From: an uncultured Methylococcales bacterium
GTDB lineage: Bacteria > Pseudomonadota > Gammaproteobacteria > Methylococcales > Methylomonadaceae
Length of the DNA: 32,442 nt
NCBI GenBank assembly: GCA_913009265.1
Contig: CAJVYL010000007.1
Location: forward strand, 1-32,442
Direction of reading: 5' to 3'
The notes under the pieces were generated by a model. That model searched no databases. It was not told where the DNA came from and was given only the letters and a program-made list of their open reading frames with translations. Both the position numbers and the translations under genes were made by a program. This document shows positions 13,566 to 32,442 of the stretch, piece after piece (the stretch's first letter is position 1; each line of letters opens with the position of its first letter).

Positions 13566-14342
13566 ATGACCCGTTCTCGTCGCCCCATTCAATATTTATT
13601 ACTTGCGGCATGTAGCTTCGCTCTCCTCCCCACCGTTCATTCTGATCCATTAAATTCAGCTATTAAGGTTGAGAGCACAATTAATAATGTATCTATCAAG
13701 TCACAGAAGAGAATTGATGGTTTAAGTAATAAGACCAAAAAAATGCTGGATAAATACCGTTCAGTTACTCACCAAACGGATACCTTACTAACTTATAACA
13801 AGCATTTAAATGAGTTACTTTCCTCTCAGGAACAAGAAAAAATATCGTTAGAGCAACAGTTGCAAGAAATTGAAACAACTCAACGCGAGGTTGTACCTTT
13901 AATCTTACGTATGCTTGATAGTTTGGATCAATTTGTTGCTTTAGATCTGCCATTCTTACCCAAAGAAAGGTCTCAACGGATTGAAAAATTAAAAGAAATG
14001 ATTGTTAGAGCAGATGTGACTAATGCTGAGAAATATCGTCGTATTTTAGAAGCGTACCAAATTGAAAATGATTATGGTAATACTATAGAAGCCTATAGAG
14101 CTGACTTAACATTAGATAGCGTGACAAGCTCTGTTGATTTTTTGCGCTTAGGTCGAGTTGCTTTGTATTATCAACGATTTGATGGCAGCGAAACGGGCTA
14201 CTGGGATAAAGAACAAAAACAATGGCTTAGTTTATCTGATGATTATCGAAACGCAATTCGTAATGGCTTGCGTATTGCAAGAAAAGAAACCGCACCTAAT
14301 TTATTAGCTCTGCCCATTTCAGTTGCGGAGGCTGGTCAATGA
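13566..14342 (+). CDS. DUF3450-family periplasmic protein of TonB2-type system
   Basis: 258 aa, signal peptide, coiled coil, LILRMLDSLDQFVALDLPFLPKERSQRIEKL; first gene of an exb/ton operon. Confidence 0.8.
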   Translation: MTRSRRPIQYLLLAACSFALLPTVHSDPLNSAIKVESTINNVSIKSQKRIDGLSNKTKKMLDKYRSVTHQTDTLLTYNKHLNELLSSQEQEKISLEQQLQEIETTQREVVPLILRMLDSLDQFVALDLPFLPKERSQRIEKLKEMIVRADVTNAEKYRRILEAYQIENDYGNTIEAYRADLTLDSVTSSVDFLRLGRVALYYQRFDGSETGYWDKEQKQWLSLSDDYRNAIRNGLRIARKETAPNLLALPISVAEAGQ

Positions 14343-15661
14343 AAAAGCTTATTTTTGTTTTTGTAATCTTTTTTTCTACTCAAGCGGTTATAGCTGAACA
14401 CTTAGATTTAGATCAATTATTACGACAAGTAAAAAAATCTCAAGGTATTGAAGCTAAAACAAATAAAACAAGAGAGTCTCAGTTTTTAACTGAAAAGAAT
14501 AAACAACAAGCTTTATTAAAATCAGCGGAAAACTCTTTAGCGCAACAAGAGCGTAAAAGTATACAATTAAAAACGCGCTTAGATGCAAATGAAGAAATAC
14601 TCAGTCAATTAGAAACAGAACTAAAAGACAAAAGTGGTGTTCTTGGTGAGTTATTTGGTGTGGCAAGACAAGCTGCTGGTGATTTAAAAGCAGACTTACA
14701 ACATTCTTTGGTCTCTGCACAATTTCCTGACCGGGATAAAAAGTTAAACTTAATTACTAATAGTAAAGCCTTACCTACTATTCAGCAGCTTGAATCTTTG
14801 TGGTTTACCTTGCAACAGGAAATGACAGAATCAGGGAAAGTTGTTTATTACAATACTCAAGTTGAACAAGCATCAGGAAAACCTCATGATGCGAAGGTTG
14901 TTCGTATCGGTACATTTAATACTTTAGCAAATGGGGAATATCTTCAATACTCTGCTGATACCGGGCGTTTAACTCATTTAGCTCGTCAGCCAGAAGATAA
15001 ATATCTATCCCTTGCTAATGACTTTTCAGAAGCAAAAACAGGCATTTTAGCACTTGGAATTGATCCAACCCGTGGTGTTATTTTAAGTATGCTTATTCAA
15101 GCTCCCGATACTATTGAGCGTATTCAACAGGGTGGTTTAATTGGATATATTATTCTAGCTTTAGGGGCTATCGGTTTTATCTACGCCCTTATACGCTTAG
15201 TTGGTCTAAGTGTTACCGGCAAAAAAATGTCAACTCAAATACTCTCTTCCACAGCTACGGAAGATAACCCTTTAGGTCGTATTTTTATAGCTGCTGAACA
15301 AGATCAATCAAACGATACCGATAATTTAGAGCTAATTTTAGATGAAGCGATTACTCGTGAAATTCCCTTTTTAGAAAAAGGACTTTCAATGATTAAATTA
15401 TTAGCTGCTGTAGCACCTTTACTGGGTTTATTAGGAACAGTGACAGGGATGATTGCAACTTTCCAATCTATTAGTTTATTTGGTACGGGTGATCCAAAAT
15501 TAATGGCCAGTGGTATTTCTCAAGCATTGGTTACTACTATGCTGGGTTTGTGTGTAGCTATTCCATTGTTGTTTTTGCATAGTCTTGTTTCATCACGAAG
15601 CCGTACTTTGATTCAAGTGTTAGATGAGCAAACTGCTGGCTTAATCAGCAAGCGTAAATAA
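14339..15661 (+). CDS. TtpC-like MotA/TolQ/ExbB proton channel family protein with long periplasmic N-terminal domain
   Basis: 440 aa; signal peptide plus coiled coil, C-terminal MotA/ExbB domain LLAAVAPLLGLLGTVTGMIATFQSIS...MASGISQALVTTMLGL. Confidence 0.88.
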   Translation: MKKLIFVFVIFFSTQAVIAEHLDLDQLLRQVKKSQGIEAKTNKTRESQFLTEKNKQQALLKSAENSLAQQERKSIQLKTRLDANEEILSQLETELKDKSGVLGELFGVARQAAGDLKADLQHSLVSAQFPDRDKKLNLITNSKALPTIQQLESLWFTLQQEMTESGKVVYYNTQVEQASGKPHDAKVVRIGTFNTLANGEYLQYSADTGRLTHLARQPEDKYLSLANDFSEAKTGILALGIDPTRGVILSMLIQAPDTIERIQQGGLIGYIILALGAIGFIYALIRLVGLSVTGKKMSTQILSSTATEDNPLGRIFIAAEQDQSNDTDNLELILDEAITREIPFLEKGLSMIKLLAAVAPLLGLLGTVTGMIATFQSISLFGTGDPKLMASGISQALVTTMLGLCVAIPLLFLHSLVSSRSRTLIQVLDEQTAGLISKRK

Positions 15662-15664
15662 GCC

Positions 15665-16174
15665 ATGTCTTTATTTGATTCTTTACAACAATTTTTAAAC
15701 ACGGGCGGTGACGTGCTATGGATTATTTTAGCCGTTTCCATTTGCCTATGGAGCTTAATCGCTGAGCGATTTATTTATTTTAAACAATCATATCCGCTAC
15801 AACGCTCACAATGGTTAACTCGATGGGAAGAACAAGCTAATAAAAATTCTCAACATGCTTTATATATTAGAGAAGGCATTATTTCTGAAGCTAAAATTAA
15901 TATGGCAAAAACGGTTCCTGTTATTAAAATGCTAGTTGCATTGTGTCCATTACTCGGTTTGTTGGGAACGGTGACAGGTATGATTCATGTTTTTGATGTA
16001 ATGGCTGTTACAGGTACAGGAAATGCTAGAGCAATGGCATCAGGTGTTTCTCAAGCTACCATTCCAACAATGGCAGGAATGGTTATTGCCATTGCGGGTC
16101 TTTATTTTAGTAAATTGATAGAACAGCGGGTAAATGATGAAACCCATCATTTAACAGATTTATTGCAATATTGA
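15665..16174 (+). CDS. exbB: ExbB proton channel protein (TonB2-type)
   Basis: 169 aa; MLVALCPLLGLLGTVTGMIHVFDVMAVTGTGNARAMASGVSQATIPTMAG. Confidence 0.92.
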   Translation: MSLFDSLQQFLNTGGDVLWIILAVSICLWSLIAERFIYFKQSYPLQRSQWLTRWEEQANKNSQHALYIREGIISEAKINMAKTVPVIKMLVALCPLLGLLGTVTGMIHVFDVMAVTGTGNARAMASGVSQATIPTMAGMVIAIAGLYFSKLIEQRVNDETHHLTDLLQY

Positions 16175-16183
16175 AAATACAGA

Positions 16184-16215
16184 TCTTAAGCCCTCTCTAA
16201 GGGATTGGGCTTAAG
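16184..16215 (+). terminator. Hairpin in exbB-exbD gap (possible attenuator or RNA-processing site)
   Basis: TCTTAAGCCC (16184-16193)/GGGCTTAAGA (16206-16215), perfect 10-bp inverted repeat; no strong T-run follows. Confidence 0.4.
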
Positions 16216-16289
16216 AGTATCAACTTTAAATTAACTTTATAGTTTGCTATTAAAAAGGCTCCTTTTTAGGGATAAACAGAGATAACATT

Positions 16290-16703
16290 ATGCGTCGCAG
16301 ATCGAATCGCTCAAATGGCGAACAAACAGCTGATATTGATATGACTCCCATGCTGGATATCGTATTTATCATGTTAATTTTCTTTATTGTAACTACTTCT
16401 TTTGTGAAAGAATCTGGGATTGATGTTAATCGCCCAACCGCTCAAACAGCCACAAGAAAAGAACAAGGCAATATTATTGTAGGTATAAAGTCTAATGGTG
16501 ATGTCTGGATAGATAAAAGACTTGTTGATATTCGTGCCGTCAGAGCCAATGTTTCTAGATTACATGCTGAGCAACCTTTAGGTGCCGTTGTAATTGCTGC
16601 GGACAAAGACACTAAAGTTAAAGTGCTTACTCAAGTGATGGATCAAATTCGTTTGGCGGGTATTATGAATGCCTCAATTGCTACGGAAACAGAGTCAAAG
16701 TGA
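16290..16703 (+). CDS. exbD: ExbD biopolymer transport protein
   Basis: 137 aa; DIDMTPMLDIVFIMLIFFIVTTSFVKE. Confidence 0.93.
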   Translation: MRRRSNRSNGEQTADIDMTPMLDIVFIMLIFFIVTTSFVKESGIDVNRPTAQTATRKEQGNIIVGIKSNGDVWIDKRLVDIRAVRANVSRLHAEQPLGAVVIAADKDTKVKVLTQVMDQIRLAGIMNASIATETESK

Positions 16704-17329
16704 AAACATTTTCTATTGCAACTTTTGCGGGCATTCTGGTCTCATTAGCATTGTTTTGGTTAATGCAAGTGATGATTAGTAATAATCAACAAGGCTTTAA
16801 AAAAACTGATAATTTGCAGATGACTGAGTTTGTACGTTTAAAGCGTGAAACTAAACTGCAAACAAAAGATAGGGAAATTCCTGATGAACCTGAGCCAGAT
16901 AAACGTCCACCACCGCCTAAAATGACTGTTCAACAAGTACATGTCACACAAAACAATGTGCCTCAAATGGATATGCCTAATTTAGATATTCCATTACAGA
17001 CTAATAGTTTTAATGGCTCTGCTATTCAAGGTGTACAAATCGGCGCAGGTTCCATTAGTACTAATGTGATTCCTTTAGTACGCATTCCACCCAGATACCC
17101 TATGCGAGCAGCAAACCGTAGAATAGAAGGTTGGGTTAAAGTTGAATTTACTATTACTGAGCAAGGAACTGTTAAAGATGCTGTTGTTATTGAGGCTCAG
17201 CCAAGAAAAGTCTTTAATAGGGCTGCATTACAGGCTATTAAACGTTGGAAGTTTAAAGCTAAAATCATAGGTGGCGAAGCTTTTGAGCAACGTGCCATAC
17301 AAGTATTACAATTTAAATTATCAAAATGA
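16700..17329 (+). CDS. tonB: TonB energy transducer
   Basis: 209 aa; TM anchor, Pro-rich PDEPEPDKRPPPPK, C-terminal TonB domain RIPPRYPMRAANRRIEGWVKVEFTITEQGTVKDAVVIEAQP. Confidence 0.92.
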   Translation: MKTFSIATFAGILVSLALFWLMQVMISNNQQGFKKTDNLQMTEFVRLKRETKLQTKDREIPDEPEPDKRPPPPKMTVQQVHVTQNNVPQMDMPNLDIPLQTNSFNGSAIQGVQIGAGSISTNVIPLVRIPPRYPMRAANRRIEGWVKVEFTITEQGTVKDAVVIEAQPRKVFNRAALQAIKRWKFKAKIIGGEAFEQRAIQVLQFKLSK

Positions 17330-18534
17330 TACGTCTACTGGCTCTGGTTTTATCCTTATTAATATTGTCTCCGGCATATGCTAAAGATAAAGAGAAACAA
17401 GCTACAATTTCTCCTTGGGTATATAAGAAATTACAAAAAGCAGAGCAGCTTATTGCTAAAAAATCATATTCTCAAGCTGAACAAAAGTTAAAAGCTATTT
17501 TGCCTGATACAAAAGCAAAGAGTTATGAAAAAGCCATTGTTTTACGTAGTTTGTCTTCAGTTTATGCATTAAACAATCAATATAAAAAAGCGACTAAGTT
17601 ATTGACCCAAGCCCTTGCTTTAGATGCTCTACCCAAGAAACAAGAACAACAAGCTATTCTAAATCTAGGCCAGCTTTATATGGCTATGGAGCAATACGCT
17701 AAAGCAATTAAAGTATTAGAGCCTTGGCTAGCCACTAATTCAACAGGTAATGCAAAAGTTAATGTTTTAATTGCCAATGCTTATGCCCAATTAAAACGAT
17801 ATAGAAAAGCATTGCCTTATATTAAAAAAGCAATTGCTAATACTAAAAAGCCAGCCGAGTCCTGGTATCAATTAAATTTAGCTTTATATTATGAGCTAGA
17901 AAACTATACTTCAGCAGCAAAAATATTAAAGAAGCTGCTCACCATTTATCCTGATAAAAAAGAATATTGGTCTCAGTTAGCATCAACCTATCAACAACTA
18001 AAGCAGTATAAACAAGCCGTATCAATAAAGCATTTAGCGTTTAAAAAAGGCTTTATTCATTCAGAAAAAGAGCTTCTAGAGCTGGTTAATTTGTTTTTAT
18101 ATGTGGATCACCCATTTAAAGCTGCGACGTTATTAAATAAATTAATAGCAACTAAAAAAGTAAAAAGCACATCAAAAAATTGGGAGACTTTAGCTCATTC
18201 ATGGACTATAGCTAAAGAATATGAACAGGCGATAAAAGCCTTAGAAAAAGCCTCTAGCCTCAATAACAAAGGAAGTTTATATCAACGTTTAGGGCAAATA
18301 TATGTTGAGAAAGAGCAATGGGGTAAGGCAATCCAATCTTTTAATAAAGCCTTAAACAAGGGGAACTTAAAAAATACAGGGACAACCTATATGTTACTTG
18401 GTATGAGTTATTTTGAGCAAAAGAATAAAAAACAAGCTAAAAGGTCTTTTTTAAAAGCAGCTAAATATAGCAAGAGCAAAAAATCAGCGAGACAGTGGTT
18501 AGAGTATATCCGCGAATCAAATAAACCTCTTTAA
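17326..18534 (+). CDS. Tetratricopeptide repeat protein of the TonB2-type operon
   Basis: 402 aa; signal peptide, multiple TPR-like helical repeats; ATGA overlap with tonB. Confidence 0.88.
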   Translation: MIRLLALVLSLLILSPAYAKDKEKQATISPWVYKKLQKAEQLIAKKSYSQAEQKLKAILPDTKAKSYEKAIVLRSLSSVYALNNQYKKATKLLTQALALDALPKKQEQQAILNLGQLYMAMEQYAKAIKVLEPWLATNSTGNAKVNVLIANAYAQLKRYRKALPYIKKAIANTKKPAESWYQLNLALYYELENYTSAAKILKKLLTIYPDKKEYWSQLASTYQQLKQYKQAVSIKHLAFKKGFIHSEKELLELVNLFLYVDHPFKAATLLNKLIATKKVKSTSKNWETLAHSWTIAKEYEQAIKALEKASSLNNKGSLYQRLGQIYVEKEQWGKAIQSFNKALNKGNLKNTGTTYMLLGMSYFEQKNKKQAKRSFLKAAKYSKSKKSARQWLEYIRESNKPL

Positions 18535-18574: not shown

Positions 18575-19090
18575 TTACCCTACAACAGCCCCTAAGTCAG
18601 CATTTTCATAGACGCGAGTTTTCTTCCAACCAGCAAATTTATCTTCAAAAAACTGTAAATCATGATCTATAGAATGCTCATAACAGCTTCTAAATAATCT
18701 TGCCGTTCTAAAAGCATGTAGCTCATCATCAGCGGTTACCGTTTCTACATTACCCACTTGAAAAGTCTTGTTTTTGGATTTTCTGTCTTTTACCCAGAAA
18801 ACCGTATAACAAAGATAACTTTTATCTTTTCTATGGTCATACTTTATCGTTCTGGAAACACCTGTAACACCCGTAGTTGACTTGTTCTTGGGTGGTTTTA
18901 AAAACCGAGTTCGACTGCCTTTTAATACAACCAGCATTTGATCACGCCAAGTGATTGCTGCCTGTAAAGATTTATTTCTATTTCCCCATAGTTTATGTGA
19001 GAAATAGCGACTGCTCTCCTTGCCGCGTCGGACAATACGTACTTGATAACCAAAAGCGTCAGGCTCTGTAATATGTTTATTTTTTGCCAT
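18575..19090 (-). CDS. AP2-domain-like protein with two AP2-like segments
   Basis: 171 aa, basic; segment 1 GYQVRIVRRGKESSRYFSHKLWGNRNKSLQAAITWRDQML; segment 2 TGVTGVSRTIKYDHRKDKSYLCYTVFWVKDRKSKNKTFQVGNVETVTADDELHAFRTARLFRSCYE. Confidence 0.7.
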   Translation of the reverse strand: MAKNKHITEPDAFGYQVRIVRRGKESSRYFSHKLWGNRNKSLQAAITWRDQMLVVLKGSRTRFLKPPKNKSTTGVTGVSRTIKYDHRKDKSYLCYTVFWVKDRKSKNKTFQVGNVETVTADDELHAFRTARLFRSCYEHSIDHDLQFFEDKFAGWKKTRVYENADLGAVVG

Positions 19091-25790: not shown

Positions 25791-25984
25791 GCAAGCTAAA
25801 GGTTATACGTTGCAATTCAAATGCCAATTAAAGCGACATATTGTCACGCGTCAAAATGCCACATTTTCAAGCTTGCATCAGCTGGATAAACTGTACGCAA
25901 CTCTTGTATGCAACCTCTTCTTTAAGAGATTTTAGAGTTTATCAAATCCTTCCTCTCGTGCGGTCTTTTGGGCCGCATTTTTTT
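25791..25984 (+). ncRNA. Candidate structured ncRNA or 5' leader ending in an intrinsic terminator
   Basis: Stem GCAAGCT (25791-25797)/AGCTTGC (25870-25876); stem GATAAACT (25885-25892)/AGTTTATC (25936-25943) enclosing CTCTT/AAGAG; terminator TGCGGTC-ttttg-GGCCGCA followed by seven T (25959-25984). Confidence 0.5.
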
Positions 25985-25994
25985 GGAGACAGCC

Positions 25995-26633
25995 ATGCAA
26001 CGTAATTATCAGTCAGATTATTTTGACACACCTTCAATTCAAGACCTTACTCATCAAACGGCTTTTCATGAGGCTGGACATGCTGCGAGTATTTATTTAG
26101 GAAACAAACAAAAGAAACTTCCTGCTGTCTTTTTTCAAATACAGGTTCAACAGGCAAAAGAATCTAATCCGTTAAATATTGCCAAAGTTATCGGTGGCCA
26201 TTTAATTCAAAGCCTGCCTATTGCAGGACTAGATAATTTTCAATCTTTATCAAAACTGGATCAATTAAATTATCAAGCTGCTTATGAAGCGGATGTCATT
26301 AATTTATTGGTAGGCCCTTTAGCCGAAGCGAAATATGTTTCAATAAGAGATGATGAAGCATTTAACTTCAACTTAATTAATACCCATGCTTTAAATTATT
26401 ATGGTGGCTCTTCTGATGTAAAAAAAGCCTATGCTTATTTAGAATATTTCATTCCTTCTGAAAGTGAGCGTGAAGAAAAAATACTTGAATTATTTTTCCA
26501 AGCTTTTCAATTTATTAATACTCAAGGGAATTGGAAATATATCTTAAATTTAGCGCATTATATTTTAGAGAGTGAAAAAGATATTATTTCTTGTGAGGAA
26601 GCTATAGATGTTTTTGATCAATGCGTAAGTTAA
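25995..26633 (+). CDS. Stand-alone M41 (FtsH peptidase)-like HEAGH domain protein
   Basis: HEAGHAA zinc motif, LLVGPLAEAKY resembling FtsH YGGRLAEEIIYG, and GGSSDVKKAYAYLEYF resembling TGASNDIKVATNLARNMV (third ligand Asp); no AAA domain. ATG at 25995 with GGAGA RBS preferred over TTG at 25968. Confidence 0.7.
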   Translation: MQRNYQSDYFDTPSIQDLTHQTAFHEAGHAASIYLGNKQKKLPAVFFQIQVQQAKESNPLNIAKVIGGHLIQSLPIAGLDNFQSLSKLDQLNYQAAYEADVINLLVGPLAEAKYVSIRDDEAFNFNLINTHALNYYGGSSDVKKAYAYLEYFIPSESEREEKILELFFQAFQFINTQGNWKYILNLAHYILESEKDIISCEEAIDVFDQCVS

Positions 26634-26652
26634 AATAGCCGGTTACTGGTGC

Positions 26653-26703
26653 GCAGGCTTCAGCCTGCCCTTACGCTTAAGAACACAGGTAAAAGCTGTG
26701 TTC
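26653..26703. repeat. REP-like tandem palindromes in convergent intergenic region
   Basis: GCAGGCTTCAGCCTGC (26653-26668) and GAACACAG-gtaaaag-CTGTGTTC (26681-26703). Confidence 0.7.
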
Positions 26704-26723: not shown

Positions 26724-28286
26724 CTAAATTTGCTTTAATGGGATTTTAAAATAAAAACAGGCTCCCACTTCAGGATTATTTTTTACACCGAGTAAACCAT
26801 GATGCTCTTCAATAATTTCTTTGCAGATTGCTAACCCCAATCCAGTTCCGCCTGAGCCATCTTCAGTCAAACTACTTTGCTGAAATTTATCAAAAACAGT
26901 ATGTATCTCATTTTCAGGAACTCCTACGCCCTGATCTTTTATTTCTAGCTGTAAAGAGTCATTTAATGTCTTAATATTAAAAGTAATTACGCCTTTTATC
27001 GGAGTATGTTTTATTGCATTAGATAAAAAATTAGTGATGACTTGGAAAATACGCATATTATCAAAAACAGCAAAAGTCTCCCCTGTTTGATAATGGCATT
27101 CAGTCTTTATTTTTAACTCTTCCATTCTTGCTTTCTGTTCATTTACTGCCTGTTCAACTAAACTTCGTAAATCACATTCAACAAAGTTCATATCCATTTT
27201 TCCTGCTTCCATTTTGGATAAATCGAGCAAATCATTTAATAGATTTAATAAGCGTTGGCCACTTTCTGTAATTCTTGAAAAATAACTTTCTAGTTTTTCT
27301 CTAGGGGCTTTATCTACTCGTGTTTTGCCTAAACTAGCAAAACTTAAAATACCATGCAGAGGGGTACGAAGTTCATGGGACATATTAGCTAGAAATGCTG
27401 ATTTAGCTTGATTAGCTATTTCGGCTGCTTCTTTTGCTAAGACTAACTGTTGATGTTCTTTTTGACGAGAAATATCAACCAATACACCATTAATATTTTT
27501 AGACCGGTTGCTTGAATCTAGGCCAATAACACCTCTTATCACGATCCACCTTATTTCATCATTGGAATGAACTCTAAATTCAAAATCAAATTGATAACCT
27601 GTCTTTTCATTTATTGAAGATTGCAGATACTGTTCTAATGGCTGAATATCCTGGTGATAAATATTTTTCAACCACTGCTGATAAGGAAAAATGGACTGAC
27701 CCGAATTAATGAAGCAAATCTGCCTAGCTTTCTCATCAAGGTGTATTTGTTTGTTAGTAATATCAAATTGAAAAACACCTGCATTGGAGGCATATAATGC
27801 AGACTGTAATTGATCGGTTTTTTTTATTAAATGTTGTTCGGCCCTTTTTCTTTCTTGAACTTGGTTTTCAAGCGCCCTTTCACGTTTGATAGAGGCAGTG
27901 ACATCGGTAATATTGATTAAACAATAACGTGAAGATGTAGCGCTTACTTCTATGCTGGTAACATTAATTTGTTGCTGGAGACGATCCTTTTTTTGTGTGT
28001 CTGGTATATATAAAGGAAATGGAGCCCTATTTAAAACGCTGGATAAAATAGCAGGTAATGCTGTTTTAATATTAGAAAAAATTACTTGATGGATCCGTTT
28101 GTTTATCAATTCTGGAAATACTTCATCAAAAGATTTTCCGATAACGGTAGTACCCTTTATTAAGGAGTATTTTTCCATCCATTGATTCCAGCATACAATA
28201 TTTCCTTGCATATCTAGAACAATAACGCCTGAATTTAAACTACTAAAGAAGTTTTTTAAGTCGAGACTTAAGACTGGTTCACTCAT
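26724..28286 (-). CDS. PAS domain sensor histidine kinase
   Basis: 520 aa; PAS-like N-terminal regions, HisKA FLANMSHELRTPLHGILSF, HATPase N/G boxes NFLSNAIKHTP, DQGVGVPENEI, GGTGLGLAI; no receiver domain. Confidence 0.92.
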   Translation of the reverse strand: MSEPVLSLDLKNFFSSLNSGVIVLDMQGNIVCWNQWMEKYSLIKGTTVIGKSFDEVFPELINKRIHQVIFSNIKTALPAILSSVLNRAPFPLYIPDTQKKDRLQQQINVTSIEVSATSSRYCLINITDVTASIKRERALENQVQERKRAEQHLIKKTDQLQSALYASNAGVFQFDITNKQIHLDEKARQICFINSGQSIFPYQQWLKNIYHQDIQPLEQYLQSSINEKTGYQFDFEFRVHSNDEIRWIVIRGVIGLDSSNRSKNINGVLVDISRQKEHQQLVLAKEAAEIANQAKSAFLANMSHELRTPLHGILSFASLGKTRVDKAPREKLESYFSRITESGQRLLNLLNDLLDLSKMEAGKMDMNFVECDLRSLVEQAVNEQKARMEELKIKTECHYQTGETFAVFDNMRIFQVITNFLSNAIKHTPIKGVITFNIKTLNDSLQLEIKDQGVGVPENEIHTVFDKFQQSSLTEDGSGGTGLGLAICKEIIEEHHGLLGVKNNPEVGACFYFKIPLKQI

Positions 28287-28902
28287 AGCTTTCCAATAAC
28301 GTATTCAAGGTTTTGTACAAATCTCCCATAGAATCCATATTTAGAACAAAAACCAAATGCCCATTGATAGAGCTATTTTTTAATTCCATTTTCACAACAA
28401 TAGAAATTAAAACGTCGGTATTTGCTCCCGTTGACTGAGTAAGTAATTCATCGGTTTTTGTATCACGAAAAATAGGCAACTGAATTTTAAAACTTTCACA
28501 TAAAGCTTCTGCTATTACACTGATACAAGAATTTAAGACTATGTTGCCTATCTCTGTTAGAGCTTCACTTTGTAATTCGGTTAATATCTCGTCAGATAAG
28601 TGATCATCAAGCATTTGCTTAACCACATCAAAGCTATCTTCAGGGTTGAAAATTAGCATTGAATGCATATCAAATGGCCCTTCCATGGCTTGAGAGACAG
28701 AAAATATACTTTGATCAGGGCCAAGACGATTAGCCAGTTCTTCTGGCGTTTCAAAAATGATATCTGGAACAGATAATATAACTTCTTGATTAACTAGTTC
28801 ACTTAAGGAACTAGCTGCACTGCCAATGCCCAAGTTAAAAAGTTCTTTAAGCAGGTCGTACTGCATTTCAGATAACTCAAAAGGACTGTTTTTCATTAAC
28901 AT
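28279..28902 (-). CDS. CheC-family phosphatase-like protein
   Basis: 207 aa; ELFNLGIGSAASSLSELVNQEVILSVP and EIGNIVLNSCISVIAEALCESFKIQLP, resembling the paired ExxN...P CheC motifs. Confidence 0.85.
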   Translation of the reverse strand: MLMKNSPFELSEMQYDLLKELFNLGIGSAASSLSELVNQEVILSVPDIIFETPEELANRLGPDQSIFSVSQAMEGPFDMHSMLIFNPEDSFDVVKQMLDDHLSDEILTELQSEALTEIGNIVLNSCISVIAEALCESFKIQLPIFRDTKTDELLTQSTGANTDVLISIVVKMELKNSSINGHLVFVLNMDSMGDLYKTLNTLLESYE

Positions 28903-29126: not shown

Positions 29127-30194
29127 TTAAGGTTTTAATGAAGTATTTGTAGTATCAATGGAATCAATACTTTCAGATACCATTTCTTGTACGGAACCAA
29201 AGTCATAACCTGATTTTGTTAATTTCAAGCCTCGATTAGCCATCATTACGCCCATAACAATAACTAACACACCTGAAACTCTAACGAGGTCATGAATAGT
29301 ATTTCTAGATAATAGGTTTGCAAAAAAACCAAAACCAAGCAAGGGGACGAGTGTTCCTAATCCAAAGAAAAGTAATAAGCTTGCACCTTCTTGTGGGCTT
29401 CCTGTTCCAGCAGCCATAATGTACATCGCTTGTAAGGGGCCACAGCCTAATAAAAAACCAGTTAAAAGACCGATTACCAGAGGGCTACGTTGAGTTTTAA
29501 TATTGCTATTAACTTCCTTGGTAAAGGCTTTTGGTAATCGTATGGTAAATGATCGTAATGAAGGAATTAAATCTAACATCTTTAGACCATAGATCAGTAA
29601 GAATATACTAGCAAATAAAGCCGCTATACCTCTCATATGAGAGGTAATAGTAATGGCTGCACCAAGTAAACCAAACCCAGCACCAATAGCTGAATAAGAG
29701 ATTGTTTTACCAATGCCATAGGCTAAATGAGCCAAAATAGCCCCTGCTTTGCTTGTTACTTTACTAGAGTAGCTAATAACAAAACTTCCACACATACCAA
29801 TACAATGAAACCCCGTAAGAAAGCCAATACTAAATAGCATGACATGACTCATCTGAGCATTTAATTGTGGAATCAGCTCAGGCATTAAACTTTTACCCCA
29901 CAGTGCAGTTCCACCAACGGCTATTAGTAAAATAATAAAAATAACAGTATGTAATAAATATGACTTTTTCTTTGGCTGCTGATTTTCTATGTCATAGCCT
30001 TTTTTCTCTATGGCCAATTGAAAATCTTGCTCAGTTACCATTTGGTCATCAAATTCGATACGAGCTGTTTTTTTGACATAATCAGCTTTAACTTTAACAA
30101 TGCCTGGCAATATTAAGATGGCATCCTCAATTGATTGTTCACAGCCGGTACATTGCATACCTTTTATTTTTAATTCAACGTGTTCAATTGTCAT
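29127..30194 (-). CDS. HMA domain plus TauE/SafE (UreH-like) transmembrane protein
   Basis: 355 aa; N-terminal heavy-metal domain KIKGMQCTGCEQSIEDAI; polytopic domain with GFHCIGMCG and GFLLGCGPLQAMYIMAAGTGS. Confidence 0.88.
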   Translation of the reverse strand: MTIEHVELKIKGMQCTGCEQSIEDAILILPGIVKVKADYVKKTARIEFDDQMVTEQDFQLAIEKKGYDIENQQPKKKSYLLHTVIFIILLIAVGGTALWGKSLMPELIPQLNAQMSHVMLFSIGFLTGFHCIGMCGSFVISYSSKVTSKAGAILAHLAYGIGKTISYSAIGAGFGLLGAAITITSHMRGIAALFASIFLLIYGLKMLDLIPSLRSFTIRLPKAFTKEVNSNIKTQRSPLVIGLLTGFLLGCGPLQAMYIMAAGTGSPQEGASLLLFFGLGTLVPLLGFGFFANLLSRNTIHDLVRVSGVLVIVMGVMMANRGLKLTKSGYDFGSVQEMVSESIDSIDTTNTSLKP

Positions 30195-30211
30195 TAGTAC
30201 AGAATCCCTTA

Positions 30212-30721
30212 TTATCTTAATAGTAACCGCAATTGATGAATATTATCATCAATCATTCTTTTTATAAGTAAGTAAAAATATAGCCCAGAAATAGCAATAA
30301 TCATACCTGCCATCGTTGAAATAGTTGCTTGAGATATACCTGCAGCCATAGAGCGAGCATTTCCAGTACCTGTTACTGCCATCACATCAAAAACATGTAT
30401 CATTCCTACAACTGTTCCTAATAAGCCAAGCATAGGGCAAATTGCAATTAGCATTTTAATGATTGTTATTGTCTTTTCCATACTAATTTTTGCGTCGGAC
30501 AAAATGTAGTTTTTGATATAAAAAAACTCTTTAGCTTGGCTGTAATTTGTTTTTTGTTGCCATTGATTTAAGTAGCTGTTCTGTTGTTTTGGATACACCC
30601 ACTTAAAATAAATAAATCTTTCACAAATTAAACTCCATAAACAAATTGATACAACTAGAATGGCCCATAAAACATTTCCACCATTCTCTAGTAATTGTAA
30701 TACTTCATTTAATGAGTCCAT
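30212..30721 (-). CDS. exbB: ExbB-like proton channel protein (paralogue of 15665..16174)
   Basis: 169 aa; LGLLGTVVGMIHVFDVMAVTGTGNARSMAAGISQATISTMAGMIIAISGLYF. Confidence 0.9.
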   Translation of the reverse strand: MDSLNEVLQLLENGGNVLWAILVVSICLWSLICERFIYFKWVYPKQQNSYLNQWQQKTNYSQAKEFFYIKNYILSDAKISMEKTITIIKMLIAICPMLGLLGTVVGMIHVFDVMAVTGTGNARSMAAGISQATISTMAGMIIAISGLYFYLLIKRMIDDNIHQLRLLLR

Positions 30722-30808
30722 ATTTTCTTTCGATCATATAATTGCTTACTAGGAAGGGGGGATGAGTTAAATTGGTGGTTTTAAAAAACTATTATTAGTA
30801 ACAGTCTT

Positions 30809-30870
30809 TTGGGGCGCAGGTTTCAACCTGCATTCTTTAGCTCAAGAGCAGGCTAAAGCCTGCGCCCCAA
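30809..30870. repeat. REP-like inverted repeat between exbB and the TonB-dependent receptor gene
   Basis: TTGGGGCGCAGGTTTCAACCTGC (30809-30831) / GCAGGCTAAAGCCTGCGCCCCAA (30848-30870); each arm is itself palindromic. Confidence 0.85.
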
Positions 30871-30966
30871 TTAGTATAAAGGAATAACAAGTTTAACCTT
30901 GATCACTAAGCTAGTGCGCACCATCAAGCTAAAAGCAATAGTGTGTTTCTCTAGTGATTATTTATA

Positions 30967-32442
30967 TTACCAATCATAACTTAGAGTGGCATAAAAGTTC
31001 CTTCCTGGCCCAGGTAAATGCTCTCCTACAGGGGTAGCATCATTAGTTCCATTTCTATTTAATCCACTAAGATGAGTACGATACGATTCATCAAGTACAT
31101 TTTCTATACCAAAGCCAACTTGTATACCTTTGACAGCATGGTGTTGTGGACGGTATTGGCCACGTAGATTCCAAATAAAGTACCCTGGGCTTTCAACTTC
31201 TTCATTATAATTTGAGGTTTCATTTTGGTCATCATAGCCTATGAGTTCTGCACCTGCTAACCATTCTGCAGTGTCATAAAATAAACCAATTCGACCATTA
31301 AGTGGAGCTATACGATATAGGTTGTCAGTCACATCATCACGTCTACCACGTACATAACTTACCATCATATCCATCTTCCAATCGTCATAAAAGCGAAAGC
31401 CACCTTCAATATCAAAGCCATATAGATAGGCATCTACATTGCTGTATTCTAGTGCTGATTTATCTATTTTTAATGCTTCAGCATTGCTTGTTGCTGTCCC
31501 TTGAATATAATCTTCCACATAACGATAAAAGATTCTAGGCATAATATAAGCGGTATCTAACTGCCAATTAAAGCCTAATTCAGCTTGGTATGATACTTCT
31601 GGTTTTAATTCTATATTACCAATATAGTTTCGGCCATCTGCTAAACCTCCTGTTGCATTTAAAGGTAACCAAAGATACCGCTCTTGATAGGAGGGTGATC
31701 GAGTTTTACGACCAAAACCGAGCTCTACATCAATGTCACTATTTAAATGATGAGTTAGTATGGCTACTACATCTACATTTAGGTCATCTTTTTCATGTTT
31801 TTTTGCATTAAAATTATTTGCAAGTTTTGAACCTGCACTTGCTGGATTAGCAAAAGGGCCTGAGATCCCTCCAACATTACCAGCGTCCATTCTTACTAAA
31901 TTAACCCGAGTCCCCAATTCTAATTCCCAATCCTTAGTAAACTCACCTTTCCATTCAGCAAAGACACCATAACGATCTCTTGATACGTTATTAAAATTCT
32001 TAATACTTAATGCGTTATTTGGATTTCTAATATGTGCATCATGTTCAATATTATCGCCATCAGCCCCGAGTAATAAATTCCCATCATATAGAGGCATTCC
32101 AATACTCATTTTATAGCCAAAACCTCTAGAGGAGTTATCTGATACTCGCTGGGCTACATCAGAAATATCACTTCCTCCCCGAAGACTATAGTTATCCATT
32201 CGATGCTGAATATCTTGATAAGAAAATTCAGTATTGATTGTATATTTATCGGCAACTAGACCTTGGTAATTAAAGTTTGAAACACCACCTCTGGAATATA
32301 CAATATCCATGGGTAAAGAAGGTGTGCCAGTGGCATGGGTATCGTTGTAGTTATACGAAAAATCAAATTCATGATTCTTATCATCTGTACGATAACCATA
32401 ACCCAGCATGCCTGCATTCCGCTCATGACTGGTATCTACATT
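30967..32442 (-). CDS. TonB-dependent receptor, copper-receptor type, C-terminal part (5' end beyond window)
   Basis: Beta-barrel pattern; TRSPSYQERYLWLPLNATGGLADGRNYIGNIELKPEVSYQAELGF resembles OprC/NosA-type receptors; terminal aromatic ATLSYDW. Reading frame stays open to 32442 (NVDTSHERNAGMLGYGY), so 32409 is not the true start. Confidence 0.88.
   Translation of the reverse strand, partial: NVDTSHERNAGMLGYGYRTDDKNHEFDFSYNYNDTHATGTPSLPMDIVYSRGGVSNFNYQGLVADKYTINTEFSYQDIQHRMDNYSLRGGSDISDVAQRVSDNSSRGFGYKMSIGMPLYDGNLLLGADGDNIEHDAHIRNPNNALSIKNFNNVSRDRYGVFAEWKGEFTKDWELELGTRVNLVRMDAGNVGGISGPFANPASAGSKLANNFNAKKHEKDDLNVDVVAILTHHLNSDIDVELGFGRKTRSPSYQERYLWLPLNATGGLADGRNYIGNIELKPEVSYQAELGFNWQLDTAYIMPRIFYRYVEDYIQGTATSNAEALKIDKSALEYSNVDAYLYGFDIEGGFRFYDDWKMDMMVSYVRGRRDDVTDNLYRIAPLNGRIGLFYDTAEWLAGAELIGYDDQNETSNYNEEVESPGYFIWNLRGQYRPQHHAVKGIQVGFGIENVLDESYRTHLSGLNRNGTNDATPVGEHLPGPGRNFYATLSYDW

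Follow-up and report, generated by a model that had tools for sequence, protein, structure and literature searches.

We identified a gene cluster in a Methylococcales MAG (64% complete) which, taken as a whole, is best explained as the copper-acquisition unit of a methanotroph (probability about 0.72). The cluster lies at the right end of contig C7, the entire 32442 bp of which were analysed (the window), and consists on the minus strand of a gene for a TonB-dependent receptor, followed by a gene for ExbB and a gene for a protein with an HMA and a DsbD_2 domain, here called HMA-SafE or SafE (Table 1). The preliminary description had given these same-strand genes in this order, and the ORF list and Pfam confirmed order, strand and coordinates; the motifs GMQCTGCE, GFHCIGMCG and GCGPLQAMYIM are likewise present as it wrote them. 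The Pfam matches are far above chance (TonB_dep_Rec_b-barrel, E 4e-30; MotA_ExbB, 5e-23; HMA, 2e-13; DsbD_2, 2e-44). A copper-acquisition unit is suggested because the receptor carries the copper residues of OprC and the parts are kept together in related genomes. The assumed methanotrophic host fits, as pmoA is present in seven of eight genomes of the same genus; PF02461 (pmoA) gave no match in the 64% complete MAG itself.

Table 1. Positions of the cluster and of related features in the window.
Feature	Position	Strand	Basis
OprC-like TonB-dependent receptor, residues ~211-701	30967..32442	-	Pfam, PDB match, OprC alignment
HxM (His-Arg-Met), aligned with OprC ligands H323 and M325	32197..32205	-	Alignment to OprC
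Imperfect palindromic repeat in the receptor-ExbB gap	30812..30867	.	Repeat core count in genome
Solitary ExbB, 169 aa	30212..30721	-	Pfam, identity to paralogue, tree
HMA-TM-DsbD_2 membrane protein (HMA-SafE), 7 predicted TM helices	29127..30194	-	Pfam, AlphaFold, conservation
N-terminal HMA (CopZ/Atx1-like) domain, GMQCTGC, predicted cytosolic	29991..30173	-	Pfam, structure match, topology
DsbD_2 membrane domain	29244..29837	-	Pfam, conservation, DsbD alignment
HCIGMC motif of DsbD_2 domain	29790-29807	-	Sequence
CGPLQAMYIM motif of DsbD_2 domain	29415-29444	-	Sequence
Complete TtpC-type TonB cluster: DUF3450, TtpC-like (440 aa), ExbB, ExbD, TonB, TPR	13566..18534	+	Pfam

Because the window is a whole contig and the receptor gene runs off its end, the first ~210 residues of the receptor are missing from it. 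The assembly also contains contig C82, which shares window positions 32366-32442 exactly (77 bp), the kind of overlap left by a break in the assembly graph, and encodes the N-terminus of the receptor including the plug with the CxxxM motif. Joining C7 and C82 gave a receptor of 701 amino acids without stops. In the relative G007 (locus L006) the receptor region is uninterrupted, and both genomes have nadC-, lspA- and ileS-like genes, named from their translations, beyond the far side of the receptor. The distance between the receptor and ExbB genes is 245 bp in the window and 4 bp in L006, where a 62-aa ORF lies in the gap between ExbB and SafE. The 245 bp contain a GC-rich palindromic repeat which is also found at 26649-26668 and whose core occurs 22 times in the genome with at most one mismatch; it is no part of the mechanism. 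A histidine kinase gene overlapping a CheC-like gene (26724-28902) lies on the same strand 224 bp past SafE. Elsewhere in the window two ORFs are without a Pfam match, 25968-26633 (221 aa) and 18575-19090 (171 aa).

We are highly confident that the receptor handles copper. A PDB search with a full-length relative of the receptor matched OprC entries only (E 1e-27), and the four copper ligands of OprC, C143, M147, H323 and M325 (PMC8610252), are all kept as CxxxM-HxM in the joined receptor when aligned to OprC, despite low sequence identity between the two. All 15 other aligned receptors belonging to clade A, B or G043/G049 keep the same four residues, as does a separate type of receptor adjoining other SafE genes; the set is absent from the aligned BtuB, FepA, FhuA and two other receptors of the same genome. 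A paralogous receptor clade, common throughout the order and with a member on contig C27 of this genome, has Gly at position 143 and retains the other three ligands (e.g., L128:659-2755, L175:7287-9434 and L176:7575-9653); in G007 and G008 these paralogues adjoin a short DsbD_2 protein without HMA. The best NCBIfam model for the full-length relative in L006 was TIGR01778 (TonB-copper) with 179.8 bits, followed by a hemin receptor model (136 bits), and the ZnuD model also scored. The equivalog cut-off of TIGR01778 is 472 bits, so that the L006 receptor is not classed as a member of that family. The OprC/NosA type proposed earlier thus held for the structural match and the four ligands and failed for the equivalog assignment. 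In a tree the full-length receptor was separated from BtuB, FepA and FhuA with support 98, against the grouping with siderophore or cobalamin receptors that would have spoken against copper, and it joined OprC with a support of only 82, the OprC branch being long and weakly placed. In G235 an in-frame TGA interrupts the receptor (L174:6824-8543).

The solitary ExbB has a MotA_ExbB domain with intact channel motifs (GLLGTVVGMI and STMAG align with those of other ExbBs) and is 61% identical to its paralogue at 15665-16174, which is part of the TtpC-type cluster in the window. Three ExbBs without ExbD or TonB partners, those of the window, G007 and G191, form one clade with support 100/99; all three adjoin OprC-like receptors and the clade was found nowhere else. 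The receptor of G229 is directly followed by a degenerate ExbB reading frame. These observations, together with the TtpC clusters of clade B described below, indicate that the receptor repeatedly gains or keeps genes of the TonB complex. Neither ExbD nor TonB was found at 29-32 kb of the window or in the 9 kb with which C82 begins. With a single energiser subunit at the locus, these two partners must be supplied in trans. Dedicated energisation, as previously claimed, amounts here to a single ExbB subunit without adjoining partners. Two candidate full TonB sets were seen in the genome. The set on contig C3 probably serves iron because it lies near sigma-factor, FecR-like and large TonB-receptor genes (named from their sequences). 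The other, the TtpC/TonB2-type cluster of the window (13566-18534), has no adjoining receptor here; its homologues sit directly behind related receptors, and it is the likely source of ExbD and TonB in trans. We consider it probable that the solitary ExbB energises this receptor.

The membrane part of HMA-SafE matches PF13386 (DsbD_2) with 152.6 bits against a curated cut-off of 24.9. The TauE/SafE family assignment of the preliminary description was not borne out, because Pfam gave only DsbD_2, DsbD_TM and HMA and no true TauE match; the heavy-metal domain was found by Pfam, with both GMxCxxC and the HMA fold present. In an AlphaFold model (mean pLDDT 83.5) the HMA fold is accompanied by seven long hydrophobic helical segments, and loop charges (positive-inside) favour a cytosolic N-terminus and a periplasmic C-terminus. 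A structure search with this model matched the HMA half only, to Cu chaperones, and returned no solved relative for the membrane half. Conserved positions were derived from 80 SafE loci fetched with exact peptide patterns including GFHCIGMC and QAMYIMAA, so that the conservation of these two stretches is partly built in. Invariant or nearly invariant are M13, C15 and C18 in the HMA domain and H130, C131, M134, C135, H156, C251, M257, M260, M314, M317 and M318. Some relatives carry a C-terminal Cupredoxin_1 domain, which passes the Pfam cut-off in one case and falls short of it in others. Where SafE adjoins a clade-B receptor in genus g10, it has this domain and lacks HMA. From topology and these domain swaps, HMA would face the cytosol, and the cupredoxin-like domain of relatives would lie in the periplasm.

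HMA-DsbD_2 proteins adjoin copper genes in methanotrophs and ammonia oxidisers as well as in some archaea. Around 78 SafE loci we found a CueO-like multicopper oxidase (24 loci), a Cu-ATPase (19), a ~171-aa protein (18), cydAB (14/12) and, more rarely, CopZ (7), CsoR (7) and a CxxxM receptor (4); the oxidase was confirmed by model and the other neighbours were named from their sequences. In Methylomonas loci (e.g., L023, L033, L039 and L075) the SafE and multicopper oxidase genes adjoin cydAB-like genes, which encode a copper-independent oxidase. The ~171-aa family looks secreted and recurs both with HMA-SafE (e.g., L026:9553-10095) and with the receptor (L127:1709-2221); it has the invariant motifs HxF, IHG..MPG and DH and had no match in Pfam, NCBIfam or a fold search. 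In G247 SafE is cut to its C-terminal half (L167:10878-11660). That HMA-SafE handles copper is very likely.

The intact trio was found in the window genome and G007/L006 only, and conservation of the trio as such was rejected. The gene-neighbourhood check showed that linkage of the receptor to TonB-complex genes and to SafE nonetheless recurs across Methylococcales, as pairs or with a full TonB cluster. SafE lies within the receptor locus in G000, G007 and G304 (in the last directly behind the receptor). The same holds for five of the six clade-B genomes, in one of which the SafE copy is disrupted. All six clade-B genomes have DUF3450-TtpC-ExbB-ExbD genes behind the receptor and a TonB in the locus; five of them also have a TPR-type gene at its customary position. 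Orthologous receptors in G008, G015, G241 and G189 have neither ExbB nor SafE adjoining. None of 16 loci of the Gly143 paralogue, most of them short, contained SafE, ExbB, TtpC, ExbD, TonB or the regulator.

This regulator is a Crp/Fnr-family gene; wherever flanking sequence was available (eleven clade-A and G043/G049 loci), it is oriented divergently to the receptor. The encoded protein (L127:1010-1705 and ten orthologues) has three invariant cysteines equivalent to C20 and C23 (CxxC) and C122 of FNR and lacks an equivalent of C29, the fourth ligand of the FNR cluster; it is possibly a metal or redox sensor, with copper, oxygen and NO as candidate signals. The palindrome TTGATAATTATCAA (one variant) is located 67-89 bp before the receptor start in seven of nine clade-A loci. 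The upstream copy of TTGATAATTATCAA is the sole exact one in the genome, and the looser pattern TTGAn6TCAA has a background of 0.05 per kb. The conserved box makes the divergent Crp/Fnr-family protein the probable regulator of the receptor operon, acting through TTGATAATTATCAA.

In the mechanism we propose, the OprC-like outer-membrane receptor would bind ionic copper at the CxxxM-HxM site, seen in the alignment, to which plug and barrel both contribute, and a TtpC-type TonB complex would supply the force. The lone ExbB would be a specialised paralogue joining ExbD and TonB made elsewhere, probably from the cluster at 13566-18534. At the inner membrane the cytosolic HMA domain of the seven-TM HMA-SafE may accept or donate Cu(I), which the invariant intramembrane Cys, Met and His residues may pass between periplasm and cytosol, and the divergent Crp/Fnr-family protein would control the operon. 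The copper-uptake reading made earlier is supported by the receptor ligands, the recurrent linkage and the ties of SafE to copper genes; net import appears likely. Import of other cargo (heme, zinc or a metallophore) by a receptor whose neighbours are there by chance is very improbable. It would accommodate the hemin and ZnuD scores and the weak placement of OprC, but the four conserved ligands, OprC as sole PDB match and a linkage that is both recurrent and independent argue against it. SafE may also serve export or homeostasis, because elsewhere its genes are found with those of the detoxification type (CueO-like oxidase, CopA). A cluster for copper export or tolerance, in which SafE moves Cu(I) outward from the cytosol and the receptor is incidental, would agree with the CopA-type ATPases, CueO-like oxidases, CsoR and CopZ next to its relatives; it is nevertheless unlikely, as TonB receptors bearing an OprC site work inward and this receptor is accompanied by both the ExbB clade and full TonB clusters.

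A serious rival concerns SafE itself, since C251 aligns with the catalytic redox Cys285 of E. coli DsbD. HMA-SafE could be a transmembrane thiol/electron relay like CcdA/DsbD, providing reducing power for periplasmic copper handling (e.g., Cu(II) to Cu(I)) with no copper path of its own; the PF02683 (DsbD_TM) match (E 2e-9) and the invariance of C251 and of the Cys pair in TM2 among SafE relatives are consistent with this. Against it, the domains fused on both sides bind metal (HMA, and the cupredoxin-like domain in relatives) and are not thioredoxin domains, six additional Met residues (134, 257, 260, 314, 317 and 318) are conserved and the neighbours are copper genes. A relay is thus a real though lesser possibility. 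A Cu(I) path is favoured because the topology sets copper-type domains on either face of one membrane core, and we give slightly better than even odds to SafE moving copper rather than electrons.

Every part of the cluster comes from a known family. The receptor resembles OprC of Pseudomonas aeruginosa and NosA (TIGR01778) in its TBDT fold and CxxxM-HxM site, OprC being the only PDB relative found (PMC8610252), and differs by low identity (180 versus 472 bits) and by its linkage to TtpC-type TonB genes, HMA-SafE and a Crp/Fnr regulator. CrtA/BfrG operons also encode a copper TBDT, sometimes with ExbBD/TonB genes, but these receptors cluster apart from OprC and usually occur with PepSY_TM and often with CruR (PMC12914433), neither of which was seen here; the Pfam scan for PepSY covered the window ORFs. 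Among the same ORFs Pfam detected no mbnA/mbnB family of the kind expected beside a methanobactin receptor (MbnT). The TonB2 system (TtpC-ExbB2-ExbD2-TonB2) has the same kinds of subunits as the cluster at 13566-18534 and the clade-B loci, whereas the receptor locus of the window has one solitary ExbB beside a copper-type receptor. With the DsbD_2/CcdA-DsbD proteins (PF13386) SafE shares the 6-TM core, HCxGMC in the first core helix and the Cys aligned with DsbD C285; it differs in the cytosolic HMA, the optional C-terminal cupredoxin-like domain of relatives, and CGPLQAMYIM in place of the LPCGLVY of the short DsbD_2 protein of its own genome. The combination was not found in open-licence PMC literature, where searches on TauE/SafE and copper, HMA-SafE, TtpC and copper, and methanotroph copper TonB receptors gave no account of such a cluster.

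Methane oxidation by pMMO is copper-dependent. How copper passes both membranes in methanotrophs without methanobactin is, to our knowledge, poorly known. The cluster offers a defined gene set of receptor, energiser, inner-membrane protein and regulator site which recurs across Methylococcales, and it suggests a function for the HMA-DsbD_2 family. More tentatively, Methylococcales may possess a full trans-envelope copper import route. In it, an OprC-like receptor and a TtpC-type energiser of its own would be joined by an HMA-DsbD_2(-cupredoxin) protein as the Cu(I) conduit of the inner membrane and by a Crp/Fnr switch whose three invariant cysteines would sense copper or oxygen. If true, the HMA-DsbD_2 conduit would represent a type of copper transporter new to bacteria.
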